Source: Antedon mediterranea
Lineage: Eukaryota; Echinodermata; Crinoidea; Comatulida; Antedonidae
DNA: 64,000 bases
NCBI RefSeq assembly: GCF_964355755.1
Contig: NC_092672.1
Location: forward strand, 10,660,501 to 10,724,500
Direction: 5' to 3'
The notes under the pieces were generated by a model, which saw only the letters and a program-made list of their open reading frames with translations, made no database searches and had not been told where the DNA came from. Positions 6,346-58,613 of the stretch are shown here, in pieces. Position 1 is the stretch's first letter. Each line of letters starts with the position of its first letter. A program made the translations under genes and the position numbers.

Positions 6346-7060
6346 GGTTTTCTACGTTTCAAAATAAAGATAAATCTTTATTGTCATAAACATAATATTG
6401 TCATAACATTTTTACAGGTAATGTTAAAAAGTTACTGTAAACACATCTAGACCCGCAGAAATTCACATTATATACGGTACATTTAAAAATACAAAACTTT
6501 GGAAAAAAGACATTGATATTGAATTAGTTTTACATTTTTAAAGAACGGCGACCATATTTGAGTACATGCTTATCATTTTAAAGGGTCATAAATATTTCCA
6601 TTATTACTTATAGACTTGTTTTTAGGCCTAATATTATATTATGTCAACAACAAAACGTTACTTATGTTTTCAATAGTCATAGCAGTAACCTAACTTGTAT
6701 TGGTCTTCTAAAAACGTAGCCTGTAGGTATGCGATGAATATAAAGTCATTTTTTGTTGGTACACTGAGCTTTTATCCTTCCTAAAAAACCTCGACATTTT
6801 TGGTAATACTAGATTATAAATGGACAGATTTGTCCATATTTGGATACTAAATAGGCTGTTAAAGACTGTTAAAAACAAGCAAACCTACACTGAGACAAAC
6901 ATGAAAACATACCTCAAGGCGGGGGGAAATTAGATATAAAAAATTAGAAAACATTACCTAGAAAATAGTTTGTTAAGACTGAGTAACTCGATAAAATCTT
7001 GAAACCACCAAAGTACAATAAATACAAACGACGGGAATTGCAGAATGGACAACATACAAT
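6346..7060. other. Intergenic, no gene seen
   Basis: AT-rich sequence upstream of the sulfotransferase-like gene. It must hold that gene's promoter, but I see no convincing TATA or other element. Confidence 0.5.
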
Positions 7061-25300: not shown

Positions 25301-26412
25301 AATGTACGATCCCGTTTAACACTGTTCTCAACTATAGTCATTTTGGTATACTTGAGCACAGTGATAAAGAATAGGATAAACTTAATAATATACAACAAAT
25401 AACATTAATGTACGATCCAGTTTACCACTGTTCTCAACTATAGTCATTTTGGTATACTTGAGCACAGTGATAAAGAATAGGATAAACTTAAAAATATACA
25501 ACAAAAAACATTAATGTACGATCCAGTTTAACACTGTTCTCAACTATAGTTATTTTGGTATACTTGAGAACAGTGATAAAGAATAGGATAAACTTAACAA
25601 TATACAACAAAAAACATTATTGTACGATCCAGTTTAACTCTGTTCTCAACTATAGTCATTTTGGTATACTTGAGAACAGTGATAAAGAATAGGATAAACT
25701 TAACAATATACAACAAAAAACGTACATTAATGTACGATCCCGTTTAACACTGTTCTCGACTATAGTCATTTTGGTATACTTGAGCACAGTGATAAAGAAT
25801 AGGATAAACTTAAAAATATACAACAAAAAACATTAATGTACGATCCAGTTTAACACTGTTCTCAACTATAGTTATTTTGGTATACTTGAGAACAGTGATA
25901 AAGAATAGGATAAACTTAACAATATACAACAAAAAACATTAATGTACGATCCAGTTTAACTCTGTTCTCAACTATAGTCATTTTGGTATACTTGAGAACA
26001 GTGATAAAGAATAGGATAAACTTAACAATATACAACAAAAAACGTACATTAATGTACGATCCCGTTTAACACTGTTCTCGACTATAGTCATTTTGGTATA
26101 CTTGAGCACAGTGATAAAGAATAGGATAAACTTAATAATATACAACAAATAACATTAATGTACGATCCAGTTTACCACTGTTCTCAACTATAGTCATTTT
26201 GGTATACTTGAGCACAGTGATAAAGAATAGGATAAACTTAATAATATACAACAAATAACATTAATGTACGATCCCGTTTACCACTGTTCTCAACTATAGT
26301 CATTTTGGTATACTTGAGCACAATATACAACAAATAACATTAATGTACACCATTCTGTTTAACACTGTTCTCAACTATAGTCATGTTCATATACTTGAGC
26401 ACAGTGATAATA
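22395..26412 (+). repeat. 106-bp satellite array, forward orientation
   Basis: About 38 monomers of 106 bp with the core CACTGTTCTCAACTATAGTC and GATAAAGAATAGGATAAACT. Monomer subtypes alternate (CCAG with GAACAGT, CCCG with GCACAGT). A four-base CGTA insertion recurs at 23805, 24763, 25721 (958 bp apart, nine monomers) and 26043 (322 bp, three monomers), which shows higher-order structure. Short frames within it are not genes. Confidence 0.97.
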
Positions 26413-27692: not shown

Positions 27693-30477
27693 AAAGTTGA
27701 TCTTATTCTTTATCTGTGATTAATTATACTCAAATGACTATAGTTTAAAACAGTATTAAACGGCATCTTACATTAATGTTATTTGCTGTTTATTCGAAGT
27801 TTATCCTATTCTTTATCACTGTGCTCAAATATACCAAAATGACTATAGTTGAGGACAGTGTTAAACTGGATCGTACATTAATGTTATTTGTTGTATATTG
27901 TTAAGTTTATCCTATTCTTTATCACTGTGCTCAAGTATACCAAAATGACTATAGTTGAGAACAGTGTTAAACTGGATCGTACATTAATGTTTTTTGTTGT
28001 ATATTGTTAAGTTTATCCTATTCTTTATCACTGTTCTCAAGTATACCAAAATGACTATAGTTGAGAACAGTGTTAAACTGGATCGTACATTAATGCTATT
28101 TGTTGTATATTATTAAGTTTATCCTATTCTTTATCACTGTGCTTAAGTATACCAAAATGACTATAGTTGAGAACAGTGTTAAACGGGATCGTACATTAAT
28201 GTTTTTTGTTGTATATTGTTAAGTTTATCCTATTCTTTATCACTGTTCTCAAGTATACCAAAATGACTATAGTTGAGAACAGTGTTAAACTGGATCGTAC
28301 ATTAATGTTTTTTGTTGTATATTGTTAAGTTTATCCTATTCTTTATCACTGTTCTCAAGTATACCAAAATGACTATAGTTGAGAACAGTGGTAAACTGGA
28401 TCGTACATTAATGCTTTTTGTTGTATATTTTTAAGTTTATCCTATTCTTTATCACTGTGCTCAAGTATACCAAAATGACTATAGTTGAGAACAGTGTTAA
28501 ACTGGATCGTACATTAATGTTTTTTGTTGTATATTTTTAAGTTTATCCTATTCTTTATCACTGTTCTCAAGTATACCAAAATGACTATAGTTGAGAACAG
28601 TGGTAAACTGGATCGTACATTAATGTTATTTGTTGTATATTATTAAGTTTATCCTATTCTTTATCACTGTGCTCAAGTATACCAAAATGACTATAGTTGA
28701 GAACAGTGTTAAACGGGATCGTACATTAATGTTATTTGTTGTATATTGTTAAGTTTATCCTATTCTTTATCACTGTGCTCAAGTATACCAAAATGACTAT
28801 AGTTGAGAACAGTGTTAAACGGGATCATACATTAATGCTATTTGTTGTATATTATAGGGGGTTACCCCGGTGAACTGGTTCACACAATAGCCCATGTATC
28901 AGGGGGATTACGACCTATCTGATAGGACAGTGATTAATTCACTATTGGTAATCCTTGGCCACATTGCCAAAAGACATAAAATAAAATAAAATAAATAAAA
29001 TAAATTATTAAGTTTATCCTATTCTTTATCACTGTGCTCAAGTATACCAAAATGACTATAGTCGAGAACAGTGTTAAACAGGATCGTACATTAATGTTAT
29101 TTGTTGTATATTATTAAGTTTATCCTATTCTTTATCACTGTTCTCAAGTATACCAAAATGACTATAGTTGAGAACAGAGTTAAACTGGATCGTACATTAA
29201 TGTTATTTGTTGTATATTGTTAAGTTTATCCTATTCTTTATCACTGTGCTCAAGTATACCAAAATGACTATAGTCGAGAACAGTGTTAAACGGGATCATA
29301 CATTAATGTTATTTGTTGTATATTATTAAGTTTATCCTATTCTTTATCACTGTGCTTAACTAAAGCAAAATGACTATAGTTTAGAACAGTGTAAACTGGA
29401 TCGTACATTAATGTTATTTGTTGTATATTATTAAGTTTATCCTATTCTTTATCACTGTGCTCAAGTATACCAAAATGACTATAGTCGAGAACAGTGTTAA
29501 ACGGGATCGTACATTAATGCTATTTGTTGTATATTATTAAGTTTATCCTATTCTTTATCACTGTGCTCAAGTATACCAAAATGACTATAGTCGAGAACAG
29601 TGTTAAACGGGATCATACCGTAATGCTATTTGTTGTATATTATTAAGTTTATCCTATTCTTTATCACTGTGCTTAAGTATACCAAAATGACTATAGTTGA
29701 GAACAGTGTTAAACTGGATCGTACATTAATGTTATTTGTTGTATATTATTAAGTTTATCCTATTCTTTATCACTGTGCTCAAGTATACCAAAATGACTAT
29801 AGTCGAGAACAGTGTTAAACGGGATCGTACATTAATGCTATTTGTTGTATATTATTAAGTTTATCCTATTCTTTATCACTGTGCTCAAGTATACCAAAAT
29901 GACTATAGTCGAGAACAGTGTTAAACTGGATCGTACATTAATGCTATTTGTTGTATATTATTAAGTTTATCCTATTCTTTATCACTGTGCTCAAGTATAC
30001 CAAAATGACTATAGTTGAGAACAGTGTTAAACGGGATCGTACATTAATGTTATATGTTGTATATTGTTAAGTTTATCCTATTCTTTATCACTGTGCTCAA
30101 GTATACCAAAATGACTATAGTTGAGAACAGTGTTAAACTACATCGTACATTAATGTTATTTGTTGTATATTGTTAAGTTTATCCTCTATTCTTTATCACT
30201 GTGCTCAAGTATACCAAAATGACTATAGTTGAGAACAGTGTTAAACGGGATCATACATTAATGTTATTTGTTGTATAATGTTAAGTTTATCCTATTCTTT
30301 ATCACTGTTCTCAAGTATACCAAAATGACTATAGTTGAGAACAGTGTTAAACTGGATCGTACATTAATGTTTTTTGTTGTATATTGTTAAGTTTATCCTA
30401 TTCTTTATCACTGTGCTCAAGTATACCAAAATGACTATAGTTGAGAACAGTGTTAAACGGGATCGTACATTAATTTT
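27693..30477 (-). repeat. 106-bp satellite array, inverted orientation
   Basis: About 25 monomers of the same satellite as 22395-26412, on the opposite strand (ACTATAGTTGAGAACAGTGT on plus). It is interrupted once by a 148-bp SINE-like insertion. Together the two arrays make a very large inverted repeat. Confidence 0.97.
28856..29003 (+). mobile_element. SINE-like insertion in the satellite
   Basis: 148-bp unit starting AGGGGGTTACCCCGGTGAAC and ending in an (ATAAA)n-type tail, flanked by ATTAT at 28851-28855 and 29004-29008. The uninterrupted neighbouring monomers carry one ATTAT here, so a 5-bp target duplication is well supported. No clear tRNA-type promoter boxes were found. Confidence 0.75.
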
Positions 30478-30796
30478 ATCCTTTGCTTTACTGTGCTTTG
30501 ATTTGATAAGCAAGTTTGGTTGCCCCGCCCCCATATGCTGCCTACTAAATTAGGATTCCCTAGCTTTTCTATAAAAATTGAAGTACCCACAATGCACGTT
30601 ATACGGAAGGCATAGTCTTGTAAAATACAGACACAATAGTTTTTATCGTATTGTTTTCATTTAAATATCACTAAGATTGTCTTAAACTACAAACAACTAA
30701 AATTAGTGAAGGTATGCAAGTGTTTCTAAATATTTATTACTGGTAGTATTAATACAATTTGGATTATATCATTTTCCAGAAAGGTAGAAAAAAACA
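30478..30796. other. Flank of satellite region, no gene seen
   Basis: Non-satellite sequence with a GC-richer patch near 30515-30540; no supported coding potential. Confidence 0.4.
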
Positions 30797-35185: not shown

Positions 35186-38100
35186 ATGTCTCGGCTTCAG
35201 TTTAACACCGGTTCTGTGAACTTTGACATGGACTATGATGATGAACCAACATTTCAATATGAGGCTGGTAGTGTCCAATCAGAGTCTACAACATCAATTG
35301 CCAGTTCTGAGACAACGTCTGAAGATGACATCCTTAACGAGGACATTTTACACAGCCTTCAAAACACACGCGGAAATCTGTGGGGAGGGTTTGATGTTAA
35401 GAGATTTTCCAATAGGTCCGATTTTGAATATAAAATTAAACTTGGCCGATTTTGGAAACTTTTAGGAAACTTATTTGTCCGTGTAAACGTTGGAGTTGTT
35501 GTGTTAATTGTCAGTTTTTGTTTACCAGTGACGTTAATGGGACTATCTATGTTTTATATTAAACCTGTTCCGCATTTTGACATTTCGCTCGATGCGTTTG
35601 AAATCCCTAATCATGTGACTTCAATTCGACAAGAATCGTTAAATTTAGCACGAAAAGAGATGATAGCCGGATTAACACTAGAGAGTAATAAAGCAAAAAG
35701 AAGCATAGGAGGAAGTGCAATAGATAGAATAGCAAATAGACGATTGCGGAGGAAAGTTGATGAGGCTACATTCCCACCACGAAATTCCATGTGGCGTATG
35801 GAAGTTGTGTTCGTCGCGCAAGGAGATAATAATTTAAACATTTTTACAGAAGAAAGACTTGAAACAATACATGAAATTGAAATGAAGATTATGAACCATA
35901 AAGATTTTAGTAGATTTTGCTCCAGATCAATGTCTTCTAGAAATGACCCTGCTCTAGCTAAGTACCACTACTGTTCACCTTTGAACTCTCTGATGACTTA
36001 TTTTTACCCCAGTAAAATTGGAAACAATGTAAGTTTACCATAATATTAATTGATGAGAAATTGTGGATAGGCCTTAATTTTCTAATACTCACACTAAATT
36101 ATAATGAATCGTCCCGGCCGACTGTGGTTAAAAGCCCTGATAATATGTTCCTGACTTCAAACAACCAAAAACAGATTTAACGTTTTGTGGTGTATGGATC
36201 AGTGATTCTAGGTATAATAAACATCATTTAGAAAATTTCAAGTAATTCCAAAAATTGAGATTGGTAAAAAAGCATGAGATTTTACAGTATGTGTGTGGCA
36301 TGGGAGCTTGCGGTTAGGTCTCACGGCAGATGCGTGGGCCTCCGGCTTGACGTGTATGGCGATGTGTGATGCTTGATCGCTGTCATAATGAAAATCACTT
36401 ACTACTACTGTATACTAATCATTTGCTATTTGATGTATCAACACTTCACTTTTAATGCTATCATGAAATTGAAATCTTCTTTACTGTCAATTTTATCTGG
36501 AAACTATACCCATATAAAGTCATCAATAAACAAAAAATTATATGGTTAATTAAAGACCTGTCGTTGAGTAACTTTCTTGGCCCTATGTTGTTGATTGTCT
36601 TTTCGTTTCATAGTACAACTCTATTTTAAATTTAATTATTTGAAATACAATAAAATACTAATTATTGTGTTGTTGATTCATGATTTTCATTGCAGATCAG
36701 GTATGATGGTATGGGAAATGAACTTGCCAACATAGATGGAGCGCTTGAAATGGCGATGTCGAGCGAGAACGTGTACTATTATGTTGATCAAAATATGAAT
36801 AGTACAAACAAACAAAGCTCACTTTTACGGACTGAGGTAAGCAAACAAACTGTAAACTTTATCACGGTGTTTTTTAAAATGTCGTCATTATTTACAACTG
36901 TTGTATGTAAAATCTAGAAGCTGACAGACAATTTTACCCTTTACCTGCTATTAAAAACCGTTTATACTATAATATCTCATTTTTCTTCTTTTGATCAACA
37001 AATTGCCCAATGTTATTGTTATTTTGTGTGTCAACATGTTAGGTCAACCGTTACTAATCCATCCATGACGTAAACCATAAAATTAGCAACAGTTTTTTGT
37101 TCACAATTTCCTTATTTAATCTACAAATTTCCAAATATATATATTGAATACAATTGAAATTGCAGTCCCCCAGTTGCCAACAATTTTTGGACCAGCTCAT
37201 GGGTGTCCAGTATTTTGAGAGTTTGCTTTCTGTGTAGGCTACTGAAAGTAGGACTTTTCTACTCGTACAGTACAGTAGCGAAGCTGTAGCTTTGTAGTTA
37301 ACATTCAGTTCATTTCATTATTTCTTTGGTCTATCTAAGTATATACATAACAAAAAGAAACTGAAATTGGGGAGACCAGGGTCAACCTAAGTGAACTTAA
37401 TCACTGTAGCTGAGCCGGTTGACCCAACCCCAGTCAGTTTACACAGAAAGGACATAAAGACAAAATACAGTTATTCTTGCCTTCCAATCCCAAGGTCCAA
37501 AGTTCAAGCCTGGCCTAGTACCACAACTCTATAAACTTCACTCCCTAAACCATATTTGAAACTTTATTAGCATAATCATAGAGATAGGCATAATAAATTA
37601 CAAAATAGTTTATTCACCCTGTAATTGGCAAGTTACTCATTATTGGATGAAAATAAAACCACAAAAAAAGAGTACTTCTATTCATGAAATGTGAAGGTTA
37701 CAGTGGCTGGAGCTCAATTTAGAACAAAAAAAACCAACAATTTGAATAAAAATATATTTAAACTCGGCAGAAGGAAATAAGAAGCATTGGAAAGTGCTAT
37801 TTGCTCGCTACTACTATGAAATGCCCGTAGTTACTATGGAAAATTGGACGACGTGTACAGAAATGGAAATAAATTTGGCCTACAGTAAATTTGTAGTAAA
37901 CCCTGGTAAAACGTGATTATTATAATAAAATCAACAACAAACAAAATGTGCTCATAGCCAATAAGGATGGAGCTTTGATGAGCCATTAGTATTACGAAAA
38001 GTGAAGACTACAGTGAAAAGCTAAGAACTCTGCGTTTGACAGTATCCAAATAACGAATGACATAATTCATGATAGGTGTGTTATTATACAGATATTGCCT

Positions 38101-41100: not shown

Positions 41101-44100
41101 TATTATTTTCCGAAAAGGTGTTATTTGGCAAGCCTATAGGTCAATCATGGGAGTCAAGCTTAAGCGGTGATGAGCAGAGCGCTGAATTTCACAAATTTGT
41201 TATCACCTATATTGATTTATTGGAGGAACAGTCAACAGAGTGAGTATATAAAGATTTTTGTAGAATTATTCATTTATACGCATCTTAGCATCCCCATGTG
41301 TCACATACTGAATTACTTGGAAAAATAAAAATGTACACACATTTTTCCTTAAATTGATAATTCAAAGTAACCTTCAAACAAAAAGAAAACTTCAACAGTG
41401 AACAAACGCAAAAAAATGTTATGTCACTGTGTTTACCAGCAAAAAAAAGTATCATCATTTTGCCGATTCCTGCACAATACATACATGTAGTGTCATTTCC
41501 GGGCCAACTAGACTAGTGGGAAGTGTCATTTTTCATGAATTTTATGTGCGAGAGTACCATTTCCAACTATCGGGCATCTAGGGGTTTCATTTACCTAAAT
41601 TTGCTTTGCCATAGGCCCCACCATGGGCAACCTATGGCTCAAATAATTAGCGACGTATCTCTCCCCCGCCCCCCCCCCCCCTTATTTCAAAAACCTGGAT
41701 CATCCCCTGCCCACTCACATTGAAAAGTATGTTTTTTTATTAAAAAAGAAATGCATTATTCGTCTATAGTTGACAATATCCTTTCTTTCTACATAAGAAG
41801 CATTAACATATTACAGGTAATACAAATGTAATATTCACAGTTTTAATTAATTCATGAGTACAAGAGTTTCTAATCCCCAACAACATGACATTTACCAGTA
41901 ATAACATAATGGTCATGGCCATTGTCTATAGTAATTATGCACACTAGTGTACATACTGTTATGGCTCTTTGCAATTAAAATAATTGATAAATCTACTTGG
42001 TTCCTACTGTAGCCAATGGCCAGTTGAGCTTTATTGTGGCCAAAATTTATTGTGAAAAACATTTATTTTGAAAAACATTCATTGTGAAAATATTCATTGT
42101 CAAAACATACATTGTGAAAACATTCATTGTGAAAATCTGATGGTATCCTGCTTTGAACTCAACCTGAAGAATTTCCCTAAAACTTTTTCATTTTTCTAAC
42201 AACTTCCTGTTTACTTCATTGTATATAAATGATTATTCTTGAACTTATTAAGGATGCAATTCAATAATCATAATATTAATTTAATTATAAAAAAATATTG
42301 TTTTGGGGCCAGAAAAATAAATTTTAAAAGATAATTAAGTCAAACATTTTTTTCGGGTTGTAATTGAATTACTGAACCTTTTGGGCAACTCTTCACTTGT
42401 TACTTCTTGGAGTCCAAATTGTTCAAACAATTTGCCAGCTCAAGATTAAAAAATGTCTTTGTTTTGACATCATCCTAAATCAAGTTTTTAAAGGGCAACA
42501 CCAGATTCAAATGTTTGTTTTGATATAAGAATTTTTTATAGCCATGTACATACAATTACACATGTGGATGATAAATGAATGAAAAGATTACTATCATCTC
42601 ATGGTATGCCTTCATATACCATCGGTTCGCATCTTCGCTTTCCGAGGATGATTATTATACTGTACATTAAAAAAAAATGTTACTTTTAAGTTTTACAATA
42701 CATAACAAAATTTTCCACAGCAAAGTAAAAGTCCTGTATGGAGGAACAGAAATATTTGACTATGAGGTGCAGTCATCGCTACATCATGATCTTCTCCTTA
42801 GCATCATTACACTAGTGCTCATCATTATTGTATTGCTCATCCTAACATCATTCTCTCTTTGGTTGACTGTATGGGGCATGCTGAGCGTACTCTTGAGCTT
42901 CTGTTGGGCTTTCTCAATTTATCGTATGGTCTTTCTGAAAACCGCCCTAGGAATGCTCAACGCTGTGTCGGTTTTTGTTGTCATTGGCATCGGTAAGTTT
43001 TATAAATACTGTACTTACAGTGCTACAACTTTTATTCATTCATACACATTTATTCAGTTATAACAATATTAACTGGGGCCCGCACTAGAAGCAAATTAGG
43101 CTTGTCTCATGAGGGCCCCGACATTACATGTATAATACATAAAAATATTATAAAACAGTAAACAATAAAATATATAGAGATATAATATTGGCTAAAAGGT
43201 AGCATTTTACAGATATGAAAGATATGAATAAAAAATTACCCTATTTTAAACATTTTTTTCATTTTCCAAATTCAAACCAGACAGACAGGACATTTAATAA
43301 TTTATTGTATTAGGAGAGTACTTTTACCCTTGAACTTGTACATAACACTCTACCTTGACTTAGTTATATTGTCCACTACTCTACTACCTTGGAATGTCCA
43401 TTATTGTCCAATTGAATTACAGTTCTTAGAAGGTTTATCATAAATGATCACACCGATTATATCCTATCTACTCTGAAAAGACAATTCAGATTAATTTGAA
43501 GTGACACTACAACTTTTAAATCAATGTTGACAACCCTATAATTTACCTTGTAATGATTCTTTATGTATGACCTCGTTATTATAAAGATTTGTGTTCTGGT
43601 GTGTAAACAACACTGTCAGAAATTCAACCTGGTTTCTTTTATAGAGTTAATAAAAGGAATTACAATGTACTGTTTATTGTACATTGTAATTCTCTTTATT
43701 TCACAATTGTTGGTATGATATCACTAGGCCTCCTAAATAGACACTTCTATACAAATGTTCTAAAAATAACTTTACTGTTGGCATGGAGTGTGCCTGTATT
43801 CTAAAATGATTCTTGTAAACAAATTGTAAGAATTCATTTCTATAAAATATTATTCTCACTATCATTCTTGAAATATTTAATCTAAAATATATAATATACA
43901 TTAAAACTAAATATTTGTCTTGTTTTTTTATATGTTTGTTCAAAAAATAATATTAATTATTATTATAAATCAGTTTAGAAATTGTTGATCAAGCCCTGTG
44001 GCCATCTTTTAGGGAACTTTTCCATAAGATCCACCTTCACTGCCATCTAGTACGCCCTCTAGCCTTCTACTGTAATCACCTCTCTGGTGTGATCACACCA

Positions 44101-47100
44101 TTTTAGGTCATTTTAAGCCATCTTATGGGTTTGTATAAAGGTTGATAACCATGTACATTTGACTTTACCGAAATGACAATTCAATGAAGCAGAAAGTAAA
44201 ATGTCGTCGTCCGCGTGGTAGTCTACAGTTCCTTGTTGCGTTGACTCGAAAGACATTAGCATTAAATTAAAGTTCCGTTCTGTAATTGTTAAATTGGAAT
44301 TGATAAAACGACATTTCCTATTGGCTCATCCTCTGTAATGCTTTTGAGATACAGATATGGATACTATAGTCTGTAGATTCAGCTAAAGGCCCATTTGCAC
44401 TGCATTAATGATTTTACTGTAGTTCGTTTTAAGGTCCATTTACACTCGGGCAACAACAATCGACGATAAGTATCCATTTTTCTTACATAAAACAAAAAAT
44501 ATTTGAACAATTTTCATCTATGCTACCTTTGATGAAAATAACATTTTTACACGTCCAATCAAATAACTTTGAGATGAATTAGTAAGAGCAATGATATGTG
44601 ATGATGCAATGATTTGATTGTTCTTATTAATCGTTATATCATTTGATTGGATTTAAAAAAATTTATTTTTATCAAAGTTTGCATAAATTGCTCTCCTATA
44701 ATTCTAGAATGAAAACATTTTCTAATTCACTTTGTTTAATGTAAGCACAATGTTTGTTTATCATTTATCATTCATCGTTATTGTCCTGGTGTGTCCCAGC
44801 TTTAAGCTCTATCTACATTAACAAACTTTAGTTTATGTGACACAAAAATGTGATGTGCTCATATATGGACATGATGAAGTACTATCAATGTTTGTTTTTG
44901 GAGCCTTAATTATTGTTTGAATACAATTGAAACACATTTACTTTTTTATTTGAGATTTAGACATTATTGAAATTACATTACATTATTAAATTTATGGACT
45001 GTTTAGTTGGAATACATCATGGAAAAAGAGATTGTTCCCTCATTGGCTTCTAAAATCATTGACATTTTAACTCACTGCCTTATATTATTATAATTTTGTA
45101 ATAATTAATTGTCTATGACAGAAACAGGATGTTCACTATGACGTTATATAACAAGAACCAAATCTACATTAAAATTATATGTATTCTAACTTAACTTGAA
45201 TAATTAATAGATAATCACAAAGCAACGTGATACACACAATTACTCTATGTATTAAAACAAAGAACAAATATTGGATTGCAATCTATGAAATTTCTGTAGA
45301 ATAATATTATGAGTTTGATTTTTTTAGTACACATTACATTTGACTCTCCTCCAAGACCAAACATTTTCAGAATACCAACATTTTATAAAAATAATTTGAG
45401 CTGTTTGGACCCTAACATAATTTCTGGCTTTTCCTAAATTTTTTTGAAGTGCTAAAAATATTTAACACTTCATTTTATACTGCATAGTAACTGTATTTTC
45501 TGTTTTTTCTTATGTGATTGACCATTTATGTTGATACTGAAATTCAAAACTAATAACCTTTAAAACTCCGGCATTTCTTTTAGTGTTAAAGGTTATAATA
45601 TTATAGACTTAAGGGCTAATGAAAACTTTTTTACAGATCACTGTTTTGTTTCTCATTTTAGGTGTGGACGATGTTTTTGTGTTCATGAACACATATCGAC
45701 AAGCCACACATTTGAAGGAGCCTGCCCTCAGGATGGGCTATACCATTAAGACGGCGGGTATTGCAACATTTTTCACTTCTGCCACAACTGCTGGAGCTTT
45801 TGCAGCCAATATGGCTTCACAGGTTTGCTAGTTTGTCTTTTGTTTCATTTTTTTACAATTTTACATTCAAAATTATGATTAAGTATTCAATTTAACTCCG
45901 AACAATCTTCCCAATTCTATGCAAGAGTTGCATTTAATCAGTTTTCAAAACCCTTTTGAAAATACACATTTTTTGTTCGTTTTAATTCAGTTCAATTCAT
46001 TATTTTATTTCATCACATGCTTTGGGACAATCTGCTGATTGTTAAAAGTGCTAGTTATTTTTCATAAAATCATATCAATATTAAATATGTAGATATATTT
46101 TGCTAATTATAATTATTTGAACAAATCTTTATACTGTACATTGATAACACCAGGTTTGAATTTGAAACCTGCACTAGAAATGGCTTCATAGAAGCTTCAT
46201 AAACTTACAATGGTATCTAGTAACTTTATATGAAAGATGATTATGCGATATTTACTTAGCAAGTGTACAACATACAGATCTATTGAAACGAAAGGAGAGA
46301 CCATGAAACACAAGTACAGAAATAGAATTGCATCCACAATTGACAATTGTTAATTCTGGCTTTGAAAACGGTCTTTACAAATATTTACGTATAGTCTTGA
46401 AACTTTTGTAAAATTTCCAAGATAAAGTTTCAAAGAATCATAATTCATATTCAAGCTTTTATAGTTGATATGACATCATCATGTCCATCCACCTTCCTAG
46501 TCAGTGATAATCATAGACACAATGGGATATCAAATTAATACAGGTATATATTTATCATAATATATGATATATACCTGTATTAATTTGTTTGTTACAGTTA
46601 TAGCTACAACTAAAGTTGTTCAATATGTTCAAACCTTTATGTCATAAAAGATAAGAGAAAATTAGTGGAGGCTAAAAGAGAATCATTTAACTGCAAAAAT
46701 GAAATCCTGAACTAAATAGAAGTCCACTCATAAATTGGATGCGATTCCCGTCATATTTATGACACTTTTGTACAGTATACTGAAACACAAAGTTTTTTCC
46801 AGACAACTGGGGAGAGTCATGCAGTAACACATAGCATCCACATTAGAAATATCTTCATTCATTTCATTGTTCATTTTATTTTCAGATTCCCGCCATCCAT
46901 GATTTTGGTCTTTTCATGAGCTTGCTGGTGTCTTTTTGCTGGTTCACAGTCGTCACTATCATGCCATCAGCAATGAACTTGTGGGGGCGATATTTTCTCT
47001 GCGAGTCTGCCCTGTTAGTATTTTTCTGAGATTTTTGTTTCTAAGATATTAATTTGTTTGATTGTCATTTTCACTCCATTTTTTTTTATTTGTTACAGTA

Positions 47101-50100
47101 TTTTAATACATAATTGTAACTCACCTTTTCTAGTATAGCAAATAAAGGGATACTGTGATACCAAATATAAAGACTAACTACATTTTGTATTCATAAATTA
47201 TACATTATGACTTGTTGATATAGCACAATGAAATAACTGTTTTACAGATAAATCACTTTTGCTTAAGTTGCTAAACACATCAACTCTGGACCTACTGTTC
47301 AAATATGGGTTATTAATCACTATTAGAGCAATTTTCCAGCTATATTAAATACAGTGTCCATGAGGTATCATATTAAAGCAATAATTTCTATTATAAGGTG
47401 CTATGTTGCAAAATGCCTTAAAGCAATTTTCCAGGCACATTAAACACAATGTTTATCTCAGTTTTCATGATATTAAGCATATTTTCCATTACAAGGTGTT
47501 ACTGTTGTGAAATGCCTATAATACAAAAATATTAAAGTAGTATCAGCTGAAGTTCAGGCCTACAGTGTCCTTACCACAGGTCCTATTCAATTGCTACAGT
47601 AATAAGTATGTGTGTATGATATTTAGATTGAAAAAGTGTAGTCGAGGTGATGGTTCATCGCATCTTCACCGTGTTCTTGCTAATCATGACCAAGAACAGA
47701 GAGTACCCTCTAACTCTACCACACAATTGGATGACAGCGACATTCAACTGCTTAATATTGAAGATGACTGTCTACACCAAGGTATATATTTTGTAGTAGT
47801 TTGAGTCGAAACACACCCTTTGATGTAGTGGATTTCTGTAATTGTCTGTAGCTGGGACATCATACCACTCGCATCTGAACAATAAGCGCTGTACATATTA
47901 TACCTCGTCGTTTTTTTGATCCGGCACGTGTGGTAACATACTTCCATAATGCAGCTAGAAATTAGCGCAAAGTTGTGTCTTGAGCTTACCAGGAGAGAGG
48001 CAAACATAAGTAAAATATCTTGTCTAAGGATTCAAGCAATGCGATGAGTGCTAAATTCGTCCTCACGATCAGTAGTCCAATAGACTGCGTCACACAAACT
48101 TACACACTATGTTGCACGCTTTTACAACACATTTTCTTGTTGTTATTATCGTCATTATATAGATTTTTTCGATTTCTTTTCCTGAATTTATATGGTTTTA
48201 CTCTTTATTGTATTGAAATGTTTTTTTGAATATAATTTATTATTATTTTTTATATATTGGTGTAGATTTATTAGATGATGATGATGTGGCCCTGATTGAT
48301 CTGTCACCATCGCCTGATCATTCCAACAGCAACCAGCAGGACTGGTCTGCTTCTAATCTTAGCAAGGGTTTGCAAGTTTTTATGGCACGCTTTGTAGCAG
48401 AGCCAGTAATCAAGTTTAGAGTGTGGTTTATAGGTAAGGTTTATTTATATTAATAGGAAAAGATGTTAAACTCTGAACAACGCCCATTTATACTAGGATG
48501 ATAATGACTACATAAAGCAAAAGATATTAGAAAAGGTTTAATTCTAGAACCATATAATAACAATTTATGCTGCCTATTCACACGTTGAATCAAATATGCC
48601 ATGATGCGTAACAGCAATAATATCTTGATGATACATCGATTTCATTGTTCTAATTGGTCATGGCGTCATTTGATTGACAGGTTTATTGATTTTCTCGACC
48701 ATAGTTCTAGTAGTGGAACAAGTCTTTTTGGAAAAGGACTTGAGGTCCAGTGTACACTTCTGACTTGTGTGCATTTTATTGAAGGTTTATTCATATATTG
48801 GAAAATCCACCTGGTCCTTTTCAGCCCGTTGTCAAGAGAAATGATGTGAGCTGTACAAAACAAAGAGGAAAAATGATTGTTTTCCATATTACAATAATTT
48901 TGTTTTTAAATTAATTTATTGGTTTTTTTTCCTAGTTGGTTTTGTGTTATTACTTGGTGGATCTATAGGCCTTGTCATGCAAATTCAGCCCGCTTCCCAA
49001 CCACCGACTTTCTACAGTGAAGAAAGTAACCTCCAACAGTTGATGGATCTTGCGTACAACCTAAGCAGCAGTAACATCCACTGCTCACAGTGTTCAGGTT
49101 TCTACCAGGCCGCTGTGGCTCAGGTAATCCCTGCAACTACGACGATGTATCACGGTAAGAAAGTGACAGCTGTTCCGCCATCTGCCAGAGTCACGCATGG
49201 TACTCACCGGAATGTGGTAACTAACCCAACTCACATAACCTTGACACCGACGGTGAAGGAAACTACTCCTGCCACCACCACTGCATGTAAGTCGGGCAGA
49301 TGTGTTAGGCAGGGGAGGGTTACATTGAAATCAACCCCTCCCTAAATAGCTTATGTGGGAGAGGGTGTGAATGTTTTGTTAAGAGAAGGCTGCAATGGCA
49401 AAATATCTGATGCAAGATTAGCACAGATAAAAGGTTTTACAGAATGCTGGCCTAATGGCTTAAATGATTGATAAGGAGAGGGTTGCACCTGGAAATATTA
49501 ACATAGGGCGAGTGTCGTATGAGGAGAGATTTGCACAGGGAGAAAGTTGTACAGAATATGGGTCTTATGGCTTTGTTGCATAACAAGGGTTGCACTGGGA
49601 GAATATTTAATGTAGGGTATAGGGGGAAAGTTTTACTCAACTAAATGTGACTGAGACTTAAGCTTTGGTGGGAATAATAATCAACTACATATTCACTACA
49701 TCTTTATTTACAAACGTAAATTGAAAAAAAAAAATTGGCTATTTTTCTTTCAACATTTGCTAAAACGTATTAAAATATTTATTTTAATCTTTTTAAGACT
49801 GTCATTCTGTGGTCAGTAATCTTTTAGAAATGTTTGGAATTTATAATAGACTGCAAAAATGTTAAACTGCCTGCCCTTTCTGTTTTCTGGGGTTTTGTGT
49901 TTGTTTGGTTTTGTGCTTTTCTTCATTTTGTTTGCTACTGTATGTGCATATTATGTTAATAATGATTGTTGTGAATGGACTTGTTTTGCATGGTTTTTTT
50001 ATGTTAAATGCTGTGTACAAGTGTTTATACAAGTGTGTATTAGAACATTTTGGCAGGCTTAATGCTCAAAGAAATTAATTTTATGTAAACCCTACACAGG

Positions 50101-53100
50101 TAAACTTATGTGTGCAAACTCGAGACAACTCTGTCAAGAAAGCTTTAGCAAAGTTTGTTCAGTGTAGACCAGTTGACAAACATTGGAAAACAGCTTTTTA
50201 GAAGTCTCATTTGCAGAATTTTGACTTATTGCAGGTTTACAAACAGAAATTTGGTCCATTCTACTAGTTTAAGAAATGCATAACAAAATCATTAATAGTC
50301 AAGTTGAGTGTTGCACTTTTGTAACTGTGATGCTTGTTCGATCATTATGAATTCTTTTGCATGTTGTTTTTCTAATTTCTTTGTGTTTGGGTGTGTGCTA
50401 TTCTAATACTCTTCTGATATTTTGATGTTTTAAGATCCGTAACTTTTTATAACTTACATCTATCTTAAGAAATGATTGCTACAAAAACACAAATACATTT
50501 ATTCATCAAATCACAATCAAAAGAAGTAAATGTATTGTACAATGTTTCAAGAAAATGATGACATCGGGTCTCAGCACACCAAGGGGTTTGTATGATAGAG
50601 ACCTCAGATTACTCTTAAAAAAATAATTTAGTTGAAGTTTACCAGTAAAAAAAGATAATGAGGGGAGAAATAAAAAAAAATAGACAAGCTAATTATTTAC
50701 AAACAAAATTAATGAAGAAAAAAATTGATGTAGATGTACAGAGTAGATTTTAAAATATAATAATAATTATAGGATAATCTTATTTACAAAATACAATACA
50801 TTATACAACATGAATAAATAAAAAAAAATAGTATTTTGAACTGAAATGTCAACGCTAGCATACCATTCTATGCTATAATTTCAGGCTATAAAGTGCAACA
50901 CAGGAATAAAGCATGCCATATTCAATTGGTTTTATTTCTCAATACATTGTTCAAAATTCACCCATGAATACAATTACATTGTCTGTTTCATGTATTCAGT
51001 GAACAATGCATATCACAACTATAATAAAAGATGGAAGAAAAGTGTGTAACTATACATTTTAGTCAACTAAAACACAAACAATTCTTACTAGCTTCTTACC
51101 ACTGTACTACTACTACTACTTAACTACTGAATTTTCTTTTTCAAATTTTATTTATTATTAAAATCGTCCAAATAATGTTTAATTAATTAAAAAAGTATTC
51201 ACATTCCATTTCCATTTCTCCGTTCACAGCAAAAAAAACATGCAGTGATTTTATCTGCCCTAATCTTAAAGAATGTCACATGGAAAAGGGTGTGCCTGTT
51301 TGTTCTTGCAATTTTTACTGCTCCACCAACGGACCATCAGTGTGCACGTCAGTTGGGTTAACCTATCCGAATGAATGTATCTTTCGACAAGTCAAGTGTA
51401 CGATGTCTCTGTGGAACGTAACAGTAGTACACACAGGCAAATGTGTTAATGGTTTGTGTAATCATTTTATTTCTCTGTGTAATAAAATGTGCTTTTAGTG
51501 TGTGCATTAATGGATTCTTCCTGTAGGAATGAGGTCACAGGCATTTTGTAGGTCATGTAATTTTTTCACTGTTATGTGTGTACTACCGTATAACCTTCAC
51601 ACCGCATAAAGCAATTTGTACTTAAATGCAACACATACTTGGCCGTTTCAATGTGCTGAGATTGAACAATAATTAAATTAAATGTTGATAATATCTCCAC
51701 AAAACTTTTTTGATCTTTTGATTTTGTTTAAATTTTCCCAATAACTTTTTTTTCCAGAACCAATTCATCCACCCTACATTCCTACGTATTTGCCACCATC
51801 TATTTCACAAGAACATTCACAAGATGAAGATGAGAGTGGTTCTCCTGGAAAAGGATACAATCCATGCAAGGGAGACTCATGTGGAGATGCTGCTGAACGA
51901 CCAGTTGTTGACAGTACTGCTATGGTGTATGTGGTTTTTGGTATAGATGGTATCAGTAAAGGAAATGAAACTAAGGGCAAGCATGTTGTAAATGAAAATG
52001 AGGTAACGTTAATTGATAAATTAAAATGTTTAAATCCAGCAATGTTTCTATTTAGGACCTGTAATTACTGTCAGCCATATATACATATATGCATTTGTTC
52101 GATATAAGTAACATACCTTGTATATCCAAGGCTTTGTGAGTTGCACTTAAGAATAGCTCATGATGTCATTTAATACATTATTTTTTTTGTGTACTTTGAC
52201 ATAAAGCATTGTCATGATTCAGGACTTATGTCTTATTTTGTCTAAAGTCTCTTTCAGTTTTATCCAATTCTATGCAGTTTTTTTACCAGTCTCTTCCAGT
52301 TTTATCCAGTCCTATGCAGTTCTATGCAGTCTCTTTCAATTTTATCCAGTCCTATGCAGTTCTCTAGTCTCTTCCTGTTTTATCCAGTCCTATGCAGTTC
52401 TCTACAGTCTCTTCCAGTTTTATCCACTCCTATGCAGTTCTCTACAGTCTCTTCCAGTTTTATCCAGTCCTATGCAGTTTTCTACAGTCTCTTCCTGTTT
52501 TATGCAGTTTTCTACAGTCTCTTCCAGTTTTATCCAGTCTATGCAGTTCTCTACAGTCTCTTCCTGTTTTATCCACTCCTATGCAGTTATCTGCAGTCTC
52601 TTCCAGTTTTATCCAATTCTATGCAGTTTTCTACTAGTCTCTTCCAGTTTTATCCAGTCCTATGCAGTTTTTTACAGTCTCTTCCAGTTTTATCCAATCC
52701 TATGCAGTTCTCTACAGTCTTCAAGTTTTATCCAGTCCTATGCAGTTTTCTACAGTCTCTTCCAGTTTTATCCAGTCCTATGCAGTTCTCTACAGTCTCT
52801 TCCTGTTTTATCCAGTCCTATGCAGTTCTCTACAGTCTCTTCCAGTTTTATCCAGTCCTATGCAGTTTTCTACTAGTCTCTTCCAGTTTTATCCAGTCCT
52901 ATGCAGTTTTCTACTAGTCTCTTCCAGTTTTATCCAGTCCTTTGCAGTTCTCTACAGTCTCTTCCAGTGTTATGCAGTTCTCTTGTCTCTTCCTGTTTTA
53001 TCCAGTCCTATGCAGTTCTCTACAGTCTCTTCCAGTGTTATGCAGTCCTATTCCCTAGTCTCTTCAAATTCTATTCAGTTCATTCAGTTGGATGTGTAAA

Positions 53101-56100
53101 AAAATCAAGAGATTATCATTTTACAACTGCTAGTATTTATTTTTTAAAGGGTAAAGTTATATACACAAACGCCTTCAATTTACTGGACAAACAGACGATG
53201 CAACTGATGTGCCGAATATGTCGGAACTTGGCCTCAAATAATGATCTTGTTTATGAAGGAGGCGCAGAATGTTTTTCAAGTTCGATGGGTAAGATACTTT
53301 GGAATGAATATTCAGTAAATTATAAAAGATGTGCATTAGAATCTGGATTGTTTATAAGTCATCTCATCACCTGTGAAATTCAGAATAATCATTGCCTTTG
53401 GTATAAAGGAACTTATGATTATTAACACTAAATGCGGTATTCATAAATCTTAGAGTTTCAGCTAGTAAAACTGATTACCTGGAGTTTCACCATACTTAAT
53501 TTTGCAATGCGTAAAAGAAAATAGATATATATGCAAAGTTTGCATACATGGTTTTTAGGTCATTTTCAACATATAGGGTTTATTGACATTTAGTCATACA
53601 GTAGAATTGATTGTATGTGTAGTATTTATACAATACAATAATTAAAGTTTATTTATTAAGTATAAAAGATAACAACAGATGGAATTGAAAAGGAACATCA
53701 AAAAATAAGCCAAGAAAAAAAATAAAAAGGATAATAAACTTTATTTTAATTATTATTATTATTAGGTCATAGATAAAGTCATTTTTTTTTTTATTGAATA
53801 TTTCTGATACTGTACAATACTTTTTATTTCTGAGACAAATAGATCATTGTTAACGGTTTTATTTCAGTCAGTCTATCTTAAAAGTACATTTTACTGATTT
53901 TTTCACTAATTTCATATTTTCTTTTTCAGAGGGCTATTTAGACAGTCTTGGTGGAGAATGTGCAAATGTTCCAAAACCACGATTGTTAAAAGGTCAGAGA
54001 TCAAAGAGCGCTATTGGTGTTGATCGGCATAAAAATCCAATATGGTATGCCATGGCCTTTGAATCTGTAAGTGAACCTTTTTAGTACTTTTTACTTATTA
54101 CTTCAGTTAATTTATTGCAGTAACAAACAAATTGTCATCAAAAGAAAGGAAATATTCCATTTCATTACAGCTCTTTGATCAATGTCAAGAGAGTTGATAT
54201 TTCTAAATGATCACTTTCTTTTATAACTTTTATTAGTTTAAAGTATAGAAAACTCTCTGGAAATAAGGGCTGGGTTCCTGTTACGCATGGCAACTGCAAG
54301 AGCAACACCCAGATACTTAACTATCCTAATACTATGGGATGCTTTATAAGTTTCATTCTGAGGCTTGGGGAGTAGTATTAAAGACAACTTAAGTAACTAT
54401 ATGAACTATGACAGGAGATCTGTTTTGACCCACGAATATGTTTGTTCCTGCAAACAAGGTCACATCCAGTGAAGCACCTGTAAATTTTAATTCATGCAAT
54501 GCAAATAGCTGTTGATCAGACATACATCTATAAAAATAAAAAAAAAATACAAAATATTATTGTATTAGACTAATATTATTATTGAGAAATAACAAAAAAA
54601 CACTTTTGAATGGTTAGTGTTATATCGCACAGAACTTTGGAATTTGGAAAGTTATTTTAAACAGTGTGAAAAGCAACACTAACGCCCGTATTCTTAAACC
54701 GGACTTTAGTCGTAGTTCGAGCTAAAACTTAAAAAATGACGTCATTTTAATTCATAAACCGAACTTCAACTAAATCGCCGACTAATTCAGGCCAACCTCG
54801 ACTAAATCGAGACGGATTTTGATCGATTTTTTTAGTCCTGGAGGGGGCAGGCTAAATGGTCGACTAAATGGTTTTTAAACGATGTTTATAAAAAACGTAA
54901 CAGTCATTGAGTTGTTATATTGGCCAGATATTGAAGAATGAAATATCTATATTTATATTAGCTTAATTAAATATACATCTATATATAAATTTACGTAAGG
55001 GCAAAATTCGGTAAATCGCGCCTTACTTCTAGAATTTTTACTCGATGGTATGTAAAGTTGGTTCGTACTTTCGGTACTGATTTTAACCACCTGATGTAAC
55101 CCTGTTTACTAATTAAATTGAGTTAGATAATTAGTTATTGACGATTAAAACGAATTTAGGTTCAACGATTTGCCCCAAATCGGGGTGTTTTCCGATCGTG
55201 GTATACACTGTCTAATGGATGTCCATCTTGAAAAATACCCGCCACAAAAATGCGAGGAGGCTTCGCATTTTCCTATCTCCTCCTACGATAATTGTTTTTA
55301 ATAGCTGAAAACCGGTTGAACAGCTAGAGTACACCATCATAATGTTGAAGACAGGCCGATTTTCTTTAAAAAATACTATTTTTATAGATTTAATATATGA
55401 TTATACAAATGTATTGATTTGCGATGAATGGAACATCCCAATCTCTCAGTCTGCCAGAGTTTGGTTTAGCACAAGTAGGTAAATTTATGAGCCCTTGATT
55501 TAACACATACGGTAGGTAAATATATGGGCCCTTTGAGAATAAACTTGCAATACTTTGACAATACTGTAACTATTTTTAGTCCTCATTTGAATCGAACATT
55601 TCTTACTGTGAATGTTCGTACTGTAAAAATATATACAGATAAACTTTATTACTGAGATTGTGGATAGGATCTACTGTTAGATATATAAACACATTATTAT
55701 ATACAAATAAACTTTATACTGACAGTTCCTTCTCAACGTTTGTATTAATTAATAATTACCAATAAAATAAACGTCGTAGTGGTGTATCGTGACATGTACT
55801 TTAATATTTCAATCGATTATGACAGTGACAGTTTTAACAAAGTATTAAATCGCAAATGTAAATACTGTATTTAGAGGTATATTATTTATAGGCCTATAAA
55901 ACACGAAAACAATATTTCGTTACTGAGTGGATAAAGAATATATTTAAAAATTGTTCCTCTTTGTACCTATCCGCTTTCCCATCCCTCAACCCTAATATAA
56001 AAAAAACCCATACAAAACACAAATTGGGTTTCTTTAAATGAGTCCAAATCAAAAATTTGGACTCATTTTGTGATAAGTTTCTCCTTCGGAAGTAATTCCC

Positions 56101-58613
56101 GGGGTGCTAATTTTAGTTGACTACATAAATCATCGTGTCTATTTATTCGTTTCTGTAAACGACAATAGTCCTGCGGCACGTACATTTGAAATCGCCAGTT
56201 TTGTTACGCTGAAATTACTGTGTATTCGAGAACCATCTGTGGGCACGACCTAGATGGTACGCGAGCGAAGCGAGCGTACCATCTAGTTGGTATAAGTTAT
56301 AATAATGAAAATCATCTTTATTTACAACTGTATACAAATTACATTATTTTCTTCGCGTAAGTCCGACTTGAACTAGGTCACGCCATAGCGACAATGGGAG
56401 ATGCGGCAATTCACCACGCGGTGGAATGTTTAGGGGGCCTAGTGCTTTCTTGTCACGCTAGGAAGTGCGTGGTTCGTCGCGATCATACTTTGTTGGAGGC
56501 CTAGAAAATATGAAAGTTACCGTACCGCCATGGTTCCTAAATATATTTTGAAGATTTTGTTTGTTGTTAATTAAAAGTACTTCACTGTTAAATTAATACT
56601 GATCTTGTTCTAATAATTAACGATTAAAATTATTTTTCATGTATATAGTCCTGATGCGTAAAAAGTTTTGTAAGAAAATGGAAATTGATATCAATGCGCA
56701 AAATTTCGTCTGCTCCTCAAATACTCTCTTGTCATTGGCCAATGTTTAGCCTTTGGTACCCAGACGTGTGCAACTCGACTAAAAGCTCGACTTCATTAAG
56801 TCGAACTGCAAACTTCGACTACTTCGTTTTTGCATCGAATTTGAAGTAATAGCTCGAACTACGACTTTTTCAAGTCGAACTTTGAACTACGACTAAAGTC
56901 CGGTTTAAGAATACGGGCGTAAGAGGTAGAAAGTGTTCATATTCCAGTGGTGTACTTTCCCCAATAGAACAATTTGATAATCATATATCTCATTATATGT
57001 TATTTTGCAGAAAATTTACATGGGAAAATCTTCTTTCCTTGCCTACAATGACTACCTCCTCTGGGAAGATGCCATTCAGGACCAAATTGACAAACTGAGT
57101 CCAGCAGAAGCTGAGCAGCTAGGCTCAATGTTTCAAACTTGTGAATATTGGAAGCAGGTATTTATGGAGATAATTGGTGTTACGAGCGCAGTGTATGGCC
57201 TAGCTTTCTCATTACTCGTCTGCATCGTTGCTGTCGTGATATTTACTGGGCATATTGTCCTACTGTTTATTGTTTTGATGACCATATTTGGTAAGTTTAA
57301 CAGAGTTTGTTGTTGTTATGTTGATCAAATTCAATCAATCGATTTATTAACAAGAATATTGTTTACATGAAATGAAATAAAGATGTGAAAGGAAAGTACT
57401 GAAAACAAATAACTTTAAGCGTAAAAATTATTATATCTTACTACCACATCTATTATTCCAAATTACATTTTGAACCTTATGAACTAATCTTTAATGCATT
57501 CAAATGAATTTTGACTGCGGTAGTTTTGAAACATTTCTCAGACAAAAGACATACAAATGAACTGAAAATAATATATTGGTTATTGTTCATCTAGGTGTCA
57601 TTTTGGTAGTTGTGTCAATGTTTTACTTGCTGGGCTGGCAGATGGGTGCAGTAGAAGCCGTTTCTTTGTCGATCTTGGTTGGATCATCAGTGGATTACTG
57701 TGTTCATTTAGTGGAGGGTTACCTAATGGCTGGAGAAATGGCACCTTCCAATATAAAGACAGTAAGAAATCATTTAGAATTGATTTTATTTATTTCTTTT
57801 TTATACTGGTTGACATCTTCAGTACCAGACTAAGGACCATGATCAGTACACTGGGAGACAAGTCTACTATTTTAAAATAAAGTACCACGTTCTTTATCAT
57901 GCATTGTATGTAAACAGCTCTATGTCCCACACGAAGGATGAGGGAATTAGAGTAAAGTATTTTGCTTAAGTAGACAAGTAATATGTCAGAGACAGGTCTC
58001 GATCCCACATGTTTGTCTGATATCCCTTACCATAACACCATACCGCTTCCATAATTGTACAATGTACAATGTGGCAGTGAATTTATTACAATCAGCCCGG
58101 TCCTGTAGATGAAAAACATATTTGTGACAACTGTGATCTTTATTATCGGATTTGGGTCAGATTTTCTGGTATTCATGGTTCTATTTTGCCAAGGTGTGTT
58201 TAGTTACATTACTTTAAAAATAATATCAGCTCTTTTTTCCTTTTCAGGACAACAAATCTCTGCGTTGTTGGCGTACATCTCAAGCAATCAGCAGCATAGG
58301 TGTTTCCATATTCAGTAGTGCCCTCACTACCATAATTGCTGCTGTTCCACTCTGCTTCACGATAATCCAACCATTTTCCAAATTTGGCAAGATAGTCGCA
58401 TTGAATACATTTGTATCCATTCTGTACACAATGACTGCTTGCGGTTCCTTCCTCAGCTGTTTCGCACCTGCTAAATATAAGTGGAGCTTCAAATGGTTTG
58501 TTGTGTCCAGCCTTATTGTTGTTGTGTTAGTTGGTGCAGGAATCGCTGGTCTGTATGGCCTACATTTGAATGGCGTCAAAATACCAGGCCCTTCAGGCTC
58601 GGAATTGTTTTAA
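35186..58613 (+). CDS. disp1: Protein dispatched homologue, 16 coding exons
   Basis: Twelve-pass RND/Patched-related transporter that releases lipid-modified Hedgehog from producing cells. Exons: 35186-36028, 36696-36836, 41118-41239, 42721-42992, 45662-45822, 46886-47013, 47627-47781, 48266-48433, 48936-49286, 51230-51451, 51758-52002, 53150-53288, 53930-54066, 57011-57290, 57595-57761, 58248-58613. All phases agree; 1298 residues. TM1 is 100-125. Loop 1 carries a furin-type RLRR (186-189). TM2-6 form the sterol-sensing-like block with GIGVDDVF (D462, D463) in TM4, then NTYRQATHL. The IPAIHDFGLFMSL segment precedes TM6. Loop 2 contains a Thr-rich linker, a ten-cysteine Kazal-type module (785-852), YVVFGI and WYAMAFES. 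TM10 has VGSSVDYCVHL (D1155). An extra hydrophobic segment, 1260-1282, precedes a short tail. Poly(A) candidate AATAAA 58881. DISP1 versus another paralogue is less certain than the family. Confidence 0.93.
36931..37471 (+). repeat. 540-bp inverted duplicate, copy 1 (Dispatched intron 2)
   Basis: Nearly identical, in reverse complement, to 61353-61907: for example CCCAATGTTATTGTTATTTT, GGACCAGCTCATGGGTGTCC and CTGAGCCGGTTGACCCAACC. It includes what looks like a LINE 3' UTR tail, so the unit is composite. Confidence 0.88.
38490..38545. repeat. Dispersed repeat tail, degraded copy
   Basis: ACCATCCAATCAAATGACCAG resembles the tail of the 4215-4410 family. Confidence 0.4.
38987..39006 (+). repeat. 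Poly-G tract (G20)
   Basis: Twenty consecutive G in Dispatched intron 2. A C-rich tract (CCCCCGCCCCCCCCCCCCCTT) of similar type lies at about 41661-41681. Confidence 0.9.
39068..39190. mobile_element. Palindromic MITE, copy 2
   Basis: TGACAAAAAAGTGTGATGTGC to GTTTGATAGTGTAGACAGAG; same family as 1420-1568, next to a further copy. Confidence 0.75.
39225..39372. mobile_element. Palindromic MITE, copy 3
   Basis: TACACTAGAACTAGTTTGAC through CATCATGTCCATATATGGGC to GTTTGATAGTGCAGACAGAG. Closest to the 1420-1568 copy. Confidence 0.75.
42045..42135 (+). repeat. Short minisatellite, CATTCATTGTGAAAA
   Basis: Five or six imperfect units of 15-18 bp in Dispatched intron 3. Confidence 0.8.
43657..43692. 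repeat. Perfect 14-bp hairpin
   Basis: GAATTACAATGTAC, 8-bp loop, GTACATTGTAATTC. Intron 4 of the Dispatched gene; role unknown. Confidence 0.85.
44435..44805. mobile_element. Foldback (MITE-like) element
   Basis: The two halves are imperfect inverted copies: GGGCAACAACAATCGACGATAA against GTTATTGTCC, TTCTTACATAAAACAAA against TTTGTTTAATGTAAGC, and CGTCCAATCAAATAAC against ATATCATTTGATTGGAT. No coding capacity. Intron 4. Confidence 0.65.
44810..44890. mobile_element. Palindromic MITE, half copy
   Basis: AGCTCTATCTACATTAACAAAC, TGTGACACAAAAATGTGATGTG, CATATATGGACATGATG: one arm of the 1420-1568 family. Confidence 0.7.
46531..46587. repeat. Long perfect inverted repeat, 21-bp arms
   Basis: Arms 46531-46551 and 46567-46587 are exact reverse complements, with a 15-bp centre that itself pairs in part (ATCATA/TATGAT). 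Intron 5 of the Dispatched gene. Confidence 0.88.
47340..47520 (+). repeat. Two-copy tandem duplication, about 115 bp
   Basis: GCAATTTTCCAG, TTAAA-ACA-TGT and ATAAGGTG/ACAAGGTG blocks repeat in the same order in intron 6. Confidence 0.6.
49330..49640 (+). repeat. Degenerate tandem repeat, about 110-130-bp unit
   Basis: GGAGAGGGTTGCACC, GGGAGAAAGTTGTACAGAAT and ATGGCTT elements recur in intron 9. Confidence 0.55.
51230..51451 (+). other. Kazal/follistatin-module exon of the Dispatched gene (exon 10)
   Basis: 222 bp, phase 1 on both sides, so it can be included or skipped without shifting frame. It encodes residues 781-854 with ten cysteines (785, 790, 796, 805, 807, 811, 819, 830, 837, 852). 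VCTSVGLTYPNEC matches the Kazal core VCGSDGxTYxNxC, and the preceding five-cysteine stretch matches the follistatin N-lobe. NVT at 843-845 is a glycosylation sequon. The preceding exon ends in a Thr/Pro-rich linker. The boundaries coincide with the module, as expected for exon shuffling. Confidence 0.88.
52240..53085 (+). repeat. 40-bp minisatellite of acceptor-like decamers
   Basis: About 20 units of 40 bp, each made of four decamers: TCTCTTCCAG, TTTTATCCAG, TCCTATGCAG, TTCTCTACAG. All three forward frames stay open for 80-220 codons because the unit has no stops; these frames are not genes. The array fills the end of Dispatched intron 11, stopping about 65 bp before exon 12. Confidence 0.97.
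54683..56919. mobile_element. 2.24-kb TIR transposon with TAA target duplication (Harbinger-like)
   Basis: Termini begin CGCCCGTATTCTTAAACCGG and are inverted over about 35 bp (54683-54720 and 56884-56919). TAA flanks both ends (54680-54682, 56920-56922). A paralogous uninterrupted sequence at 58750-58860 carries a single TAA at the same point (58809-58811), proving the insertion boundaries. A 3-bp TWA duplication is typical of PIF/Harbinger (established); no transposase frame is present, so it is non-autonomous. Internal palindromes at 56038-56066 and 56251-56287 may be nested elements. It sits in Dispatched intron 13. Confidence 0.85.

Follow-up and report, generated by a model that had tools for sequence, protein, structure and literature searches.

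Among transporters, Kazal-like domains were said in structural work of 2023 to occur in the OATPs alone (PMC10507018). These 12-TM OATP/SLCO proteins carry a Kazal-type module within a large extracellular loop (PMC10709409, PMC10507018). In OATP1B1 this Kazal loop borders the entrance taken by substrates and is joined to a second loop by a disulphide (PMC10709409); its function has been called unknown (PMC10507018). In the Dispatched family, DISP1 is cleaved by furin in its first extracellular loop, and this cleavage regulates the protein (PMC5811216). DISP3 has been described with regard to its sterol-sensing domain, its thyroid-hormone regulation and its effect on neural stem cells, and no DISP3 ligand or partner had been identified in the literature searched (PMC5278513). 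Loss of DISP3 has been reported for a starfish, Asterias rubens, and for Ciona (PMC11077316), and two polychaete annelids yielded no orthologue (PMC9695228), suggesting that it is patchily kept.

The window (the whole stretch of 64,000 nucleotides that was analysed) comes from the crinoid Antedon mediterranea, whose 354-Mb genome is assembled in 18 contigs; about 11 of these are of chromosome size, a number that would be in keeping with a crinoid. COX1 was absent from the assembly as searched. Its Hox cluster (C2, 7.83-8.21 Mb) has 12 homeodomains running from anterior to posterior, with three posterior genes resembling Hox11/13, which is the ambulacrarian pattern. Besides the gene described below, the window holds a destabilase (invertebrate-type lysozyme) exon at 2412-2735 (PF05497, 47.8 bits), an intronless 267-aa sulfotransferase-like open frame on the - strand at 5548-6351 (Sulfotransfer_5, 36.7 bits), a weak reverse-transcriptase remnant at 8436-9008 (RVT_1, 18 bits, below the cut-off) and, upstream of the gene, a 106-bp satellite in two arrays inverted relative to each other (22409-26322 and 27694-30479, with about 37 and about 25 copies respectively).

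The gene was modelled as 16 exons on the + strand (35186-58613) encoding 1298 amino acids, with GT-AG introns and matching phases; the start codon of the model is assumed, as are any upstream untranslated exons. Exon 1 (35186..36028) carries the ATG, TM1 and the first part of extracellular loop 1, which continues through exons 2 (36696..36836) and 3 (41118..41239) and ends in exon 4 (42721..42992), where the sterol-sensing domain starts; this domain occupies exon 5 (45662..45822) and ends in exon 6 (46886..47013). The cytoplasmic linker is encoded by exons 7 (47627..47781) and 8 (48266..48433), the latter reaching the pre-TM7 region. Exon 9 (48936..49286) encodes TM7 and the start of loop 2 with a conserved CxxC (49082-49093), followed by a Thr/Pro/Ser-rich linker, and exon 10 (51230..51451) encodes a ten-cysteine follistatin-type (FOLN-like plus Kazal) module. 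Exon 11 (51758..52002) encodes a C-terminal tail of DUF7023 (51823-51915) with a conserved NPCxxxxC and the first strand of the loop-2 core, 'AMVYVVFGI'. The core continues in exons 12 (53150..53288) and 13 (53930..54066), loop 2 ends and the second membrane half starts in exon 14 (57011..57290), exon 15 (57595..57761) carries more of that half, including 'GSSVDYCVHLVEGYL', and exon 16 (58248..58613) ends at the TAA at 58611-58613. A Pfam search with the 1298-aa protein returned the sterol-sensing/Patched/MMPL core (PF12349, 47.1 bits; PF02460, 46.3 bits). Intron 11 contains, directly before exon 12, a 40-bp minisatellite of about 21 copies (52241-53051), which gives rise to long false open frames there.

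The first-pass annotation had taken the gene for Dispatched. The family was correctly recognised, and a PDB search with the window protein matched DISP1 structures, but colinearity and tree placement identify the gene as the orthologue of DISP3/PTCHD2 and not as the Hedgehog-exporting Dispatched. The human DISP3 reference used throughout is a provisional, unverified sequence and no substitute for a database record; its colinearity with the exons of this gene and its 237.5 bits against a Pfam family support it as a lead, since an invented sequence would show neither. About 15 colinear blocks join the window exons to this provisional sequence (best E 5e-25), and the likeness to DISP3/PTCHD2 of human and mouse comprises colinearity over the whole protein, the same C-terminus and the same cysteine pairs on either side of the slot discussed below. 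A tree of sterol-sensing domains joined the window gene to the provisional DISP3 with support of 100/99 (57% identity); outside that clade fell DISP1 and, from the same genome, a pair of DISP1-like genes and a further pair of DISP-like genes. DISP1 belongs to the same superfamily and likewise has two large extracellular domains and a sterol-sensing domain, but the latter is only about 30% identical to that of the window gene and falls in a separate clade. The DISP1 orthologue of the genome is on another chromosome (C10:18749625, a 1007-aa open frame with a sterol-sensing domain 60% identical to that of human DISP1), so DISP1 could be ruled out as the identity of the window gene. No Kazal module was found in loop 2 of this DISP1 or of the DISP1-like genes at C2:3.1 Mb and C6:25.5 Mb. 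As the gene is DISP3, the earlier suggestion that the module gates ligand hand-off does not follow in the Hedgehog sense.

The further pair of DISP-like genes (C10:13380025 and C10:19012553; L031 and L032) are about equally far from DISP1 and DISP3 (33-38%) and may possibly represent a further DISP clade; no Kazal match was found near them in a family search at E 0.001, but as that search also missed exon 10 itself, this is no proof that they lack a Kazal module. C1, C3 and C11 hold numerous Patched-related genes whose open frames are long, several of these genes lying close together. In the window protein, a furin-type RLRR is present in extracellular loop 1 (35741-35752, aa 186-189, exon 1), and a comparable motif occurs in loop 1 of the provisional human DISP3 sequence.

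Exon 10 had been proposed as a 222-bp exon of phase 1 on both sides coding for a complete follistatin/Kazal module in loop 2, behind a Thr/Pro-rich linker, and all of this was borne out. Its coordinates, splice sites (acceptor CACAG/CAAAAA, donor AATG/GTTTGT) and phases agree, its codon bias is neutral and its reading frame is the best of the six. It translates as KKTCSDFICPNLKECHMEKGVPVCSCNFYCSTNGPSVCTSVGLTYPNECIFRQVKCTMSLWNVTVVHTGKCVN (aa 782-854), within the second large extracellular loop of the Dispatched-family protein, and the preceding linker (aa 720-781) is 39% T/P/S. The ten cysteines are spaced C-4-C-5-C-8-C-1-C-3-C-7-C-10-C-6-C-14-C, which is the spacing of follistatin-type (FS) modules, and the exon aligns with the FS modules of follistatin and of the same genome. 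A profile built on five of this genome's follistatin-type modules gave it 55.6 bits, compared to maxima of 31.1 for cysteine-preserving shuffles (none of 2000 reaching exon 10) and 6.1 for full shuffles, which rules out a chance cysteine pattern; the module is real. Its nearest counterpart in the genome (C2:23842781) is 36% identical, and the top hits of a PDB sequence search were follistatin (2.9e-10) and agrin (3e-9), each summed over several modules, with single-module matches to FSTL3 (4e-6) and WFIKKN2 (1.8e-6).

Alone, exon 10 matched Pfam Kazal_2 at 26.4 bits (E 7.7e-6, cut-off 22.8), falling to 23.2 in a 206-aa stretch and to 19.9, below the cut-off, in the whole 1298-aa protein. The Pfam FOLN profile gave no match to the N-terminal half at E up to 10, so that exon 10 is FS-type by pattern and Kazal by profile, the FOLN-like half being read only from the cysteine spacing and the PDB alignments. 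The Kazal part has the canonical 7-residue spacing between its second and third cysteines and a non-basic reactive-site position, Cys-Ser-Thr(P1)-Asn. An AlphaFold prediction of exon 10 alone, without an alignment, gave a pLDDT of 48. The Kazal family search of the genome at E 0.001 missed exon 10, and a protein query found it. The module shares with those of follistatin and agrin its ten-cysteine spacing and its GxTYxNEC core, but they belong to secreted or matrix proteins and this one to a multi-pass membrane protein.

The module had also been thought to be an insertion into an otherwise ordinary Dispatched protein, and here comparison with the provisional human DISP3 led to a different view. 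Between CITCSGLFQ and FNPCVNTGC the provisional sequence is filled by Pfam DUF7023 (the match of 237.5 bits), whereas the same anchors of the window protein (CSQCSGFYQ and NPCKGDSC) enclose a stretch rich in Thr, Pro and Ser, the exon 10 module and a short run of Pro and acidic residues. The window protein matched DUF7023 only at profile positions 154-184 (31 of 185), which are the downstream anchor, at 20 to 25 bits (cut-off 27). No DUF7023 core was found in a whole-genome search, a kind of search that weak matches can escape, and its best match was the tail in the window. With the anchors kept and the core missing, the module stands in for a domain and is not an addition to a normal loop; judged by these anchors, the slot that it fills is the one filled by DUF7023 in the provisional human sequence. 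DUF7023 was unmentioned in the literature searched. The slot lies between two cysteine pairs that are also present in human DISP3 (CxxC before it and CxxxxC after it), and these probably form disulphides.

Like exon 10, other follistatin-type modules of the genome (L046, L051 and L054) are single exons of phase 1/1, and within the DISP3 gene exons 8 and 9 share this phase, which would leave the site open to a symmetrical phase-1 exon. It is likely that the module was acquired by the shuffling of such an exon, similar ones being present at other places in the genome. No paper on exon shuffling of follistatin modules was found in a literature search. Dense Kazal clusters were seen on C9 near 3.5, 8.9 and 24.8 Mb.

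In-frame skipping of exon 10, giving isoforms with and without it, had been expected from its length and phases, which do allow it, but the outcome depends on the donor of exon 9. The main donor (T/GTAAGT at 49286, given 9.2 bits by a rough matrix of human type) leaves a final T which, joined to the AA at the start of exon 11 (51758), makes a TAA stop after residue 780, so the two isoforms are not simply predicted; only the slightly weaker donor at 49154 (G/GTAAGA, 8.7 bits on the same matrix, also phase 1) keeps the frame open with or without exon 10. The donor of exon 10 itself (GTTTGT, score 3.8) is among the weakest in the gene, and its acceptor is strong. These sites bear on whether exon 10 might be part of another transcript, from a nested gene or as a rarely used exon, with the main DISP3 transcript lacking it. 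Its weak donor, the in-frame donor at 49154 and its solitary place between introns of 1.9 kb and 0.3 kb would suit such an arrangement, but we consider it very improbable, as the exon is on the same strand, fits the phases on both sides and has a strong acceptor, and as splicing past it from the strongest donor of exon 9 creates a stop. No further Kazal-like or start exon was seen in the introns, and a nested gene was rejected.

FS modules bind proteins or serve as rigid spacers, and are mostly binding modules and not inhibitors; classical Kazal inhibition requires a suited P1 residue, and by this rule the non-basic Thr at P1 of exon 10 fits a non-inhibitory use. The likeliest reading, with chances about even, is that of a tethered partner-binding module: locked by disulphides and carried on a Thr/Pro-rich stalk, it would project from the sterol-sensing RND-type core and act as a partner-binding or ectodomain-positioning unit, in the manner of the FS modules of follistatin and agrin, and perhaps of the OATP Kazal loop, instead of inhibiting proteases in the classical way. 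A working Kazal inhibitor protecting the DISP3 loop or the Thr/Pro stalk against extracellular proteases seems improbable, since FS modules mostly bind, since furin-type proteases are Arg-specific and their inhibition is not to be expected from a Thr at P1 and since the RLRR motif is in loop 1 and not in loop 2. What speaks for inhibition is the Kazal_2 match with its canonical 7-residue spacing, together with the regulation of DISP1 by furin in loop 1 (PMC5811216) and the presence of RLRR in that loop of the window protein.

A purely structural, partnerless module, serving as a staple of the ectodomain or as an aid to folding or surface delivery in the way suggested for the Kazal loop of OATPs, would be in keeping with the conserved cysteine pairs that bracket the slot and with OATP1B1, where the Kazal domain, bonded to a second loop by a disulphide, may restrict opening (PMC10709409). 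We consider it unlikely, because the Thr/Pro-rich linker suggests a flexible tether and not a rigid staple, and because the ten cysteines fit a self-contained follistatin pattern, which leaves none for bonds between loops. Returning to partner binding, the account that we hold, on balance, to be slightly on the probable side is that of a DISP3 orthologue whose loop-2 slot came to hold a follistatin-type module through exon shuffling, with a role in partner binding or ectodomain positioning.

We regard the Kazal loop of the OATPs as the best precedent for this module, although these have an MFS-type fold and are unrelated membrane proteins, with a Kazal domain tied to a neighbouring loop; no OATP Pfam match was obtained in the 1298-aa window protein. 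A full-text search, judged by titles and abstracts, returned no paper about a Dispatched, DISP3 or sterol-sensing protein with a Kazal domain. The novelty of a Kazal module in DISP3 is thus gauged from this genome's other DISP genes and from the open literature, and an automatic Kazal annotation may already exist in database entries for invertebrate DISP3.

A known protein-binding module thus occupies a slot that holds an uncharacterised domain in the human protein. This suggests that DISP3 binds its partners through the slot, and the follistatin-type module provides a handle for finding DISP3 partners. It also adds a case to be set beside the statement that only OATPs among transporters have Kazal-like domains (PMC10507018). 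More tentatively, and as a reading with less than even chances, loop 2 of DISP3 could be an exchangeable accessory-domain port: lineages would fit unrelated modules (DUF7023 or a follistatin-type module) into a sterol-sensing RND protein, each time between the same pairs of cysteines, and so retarget it to different extracellular partners. If this is true, it would be a second transporter-like superfamily, after the OATPs, with a Kazal-type loop.
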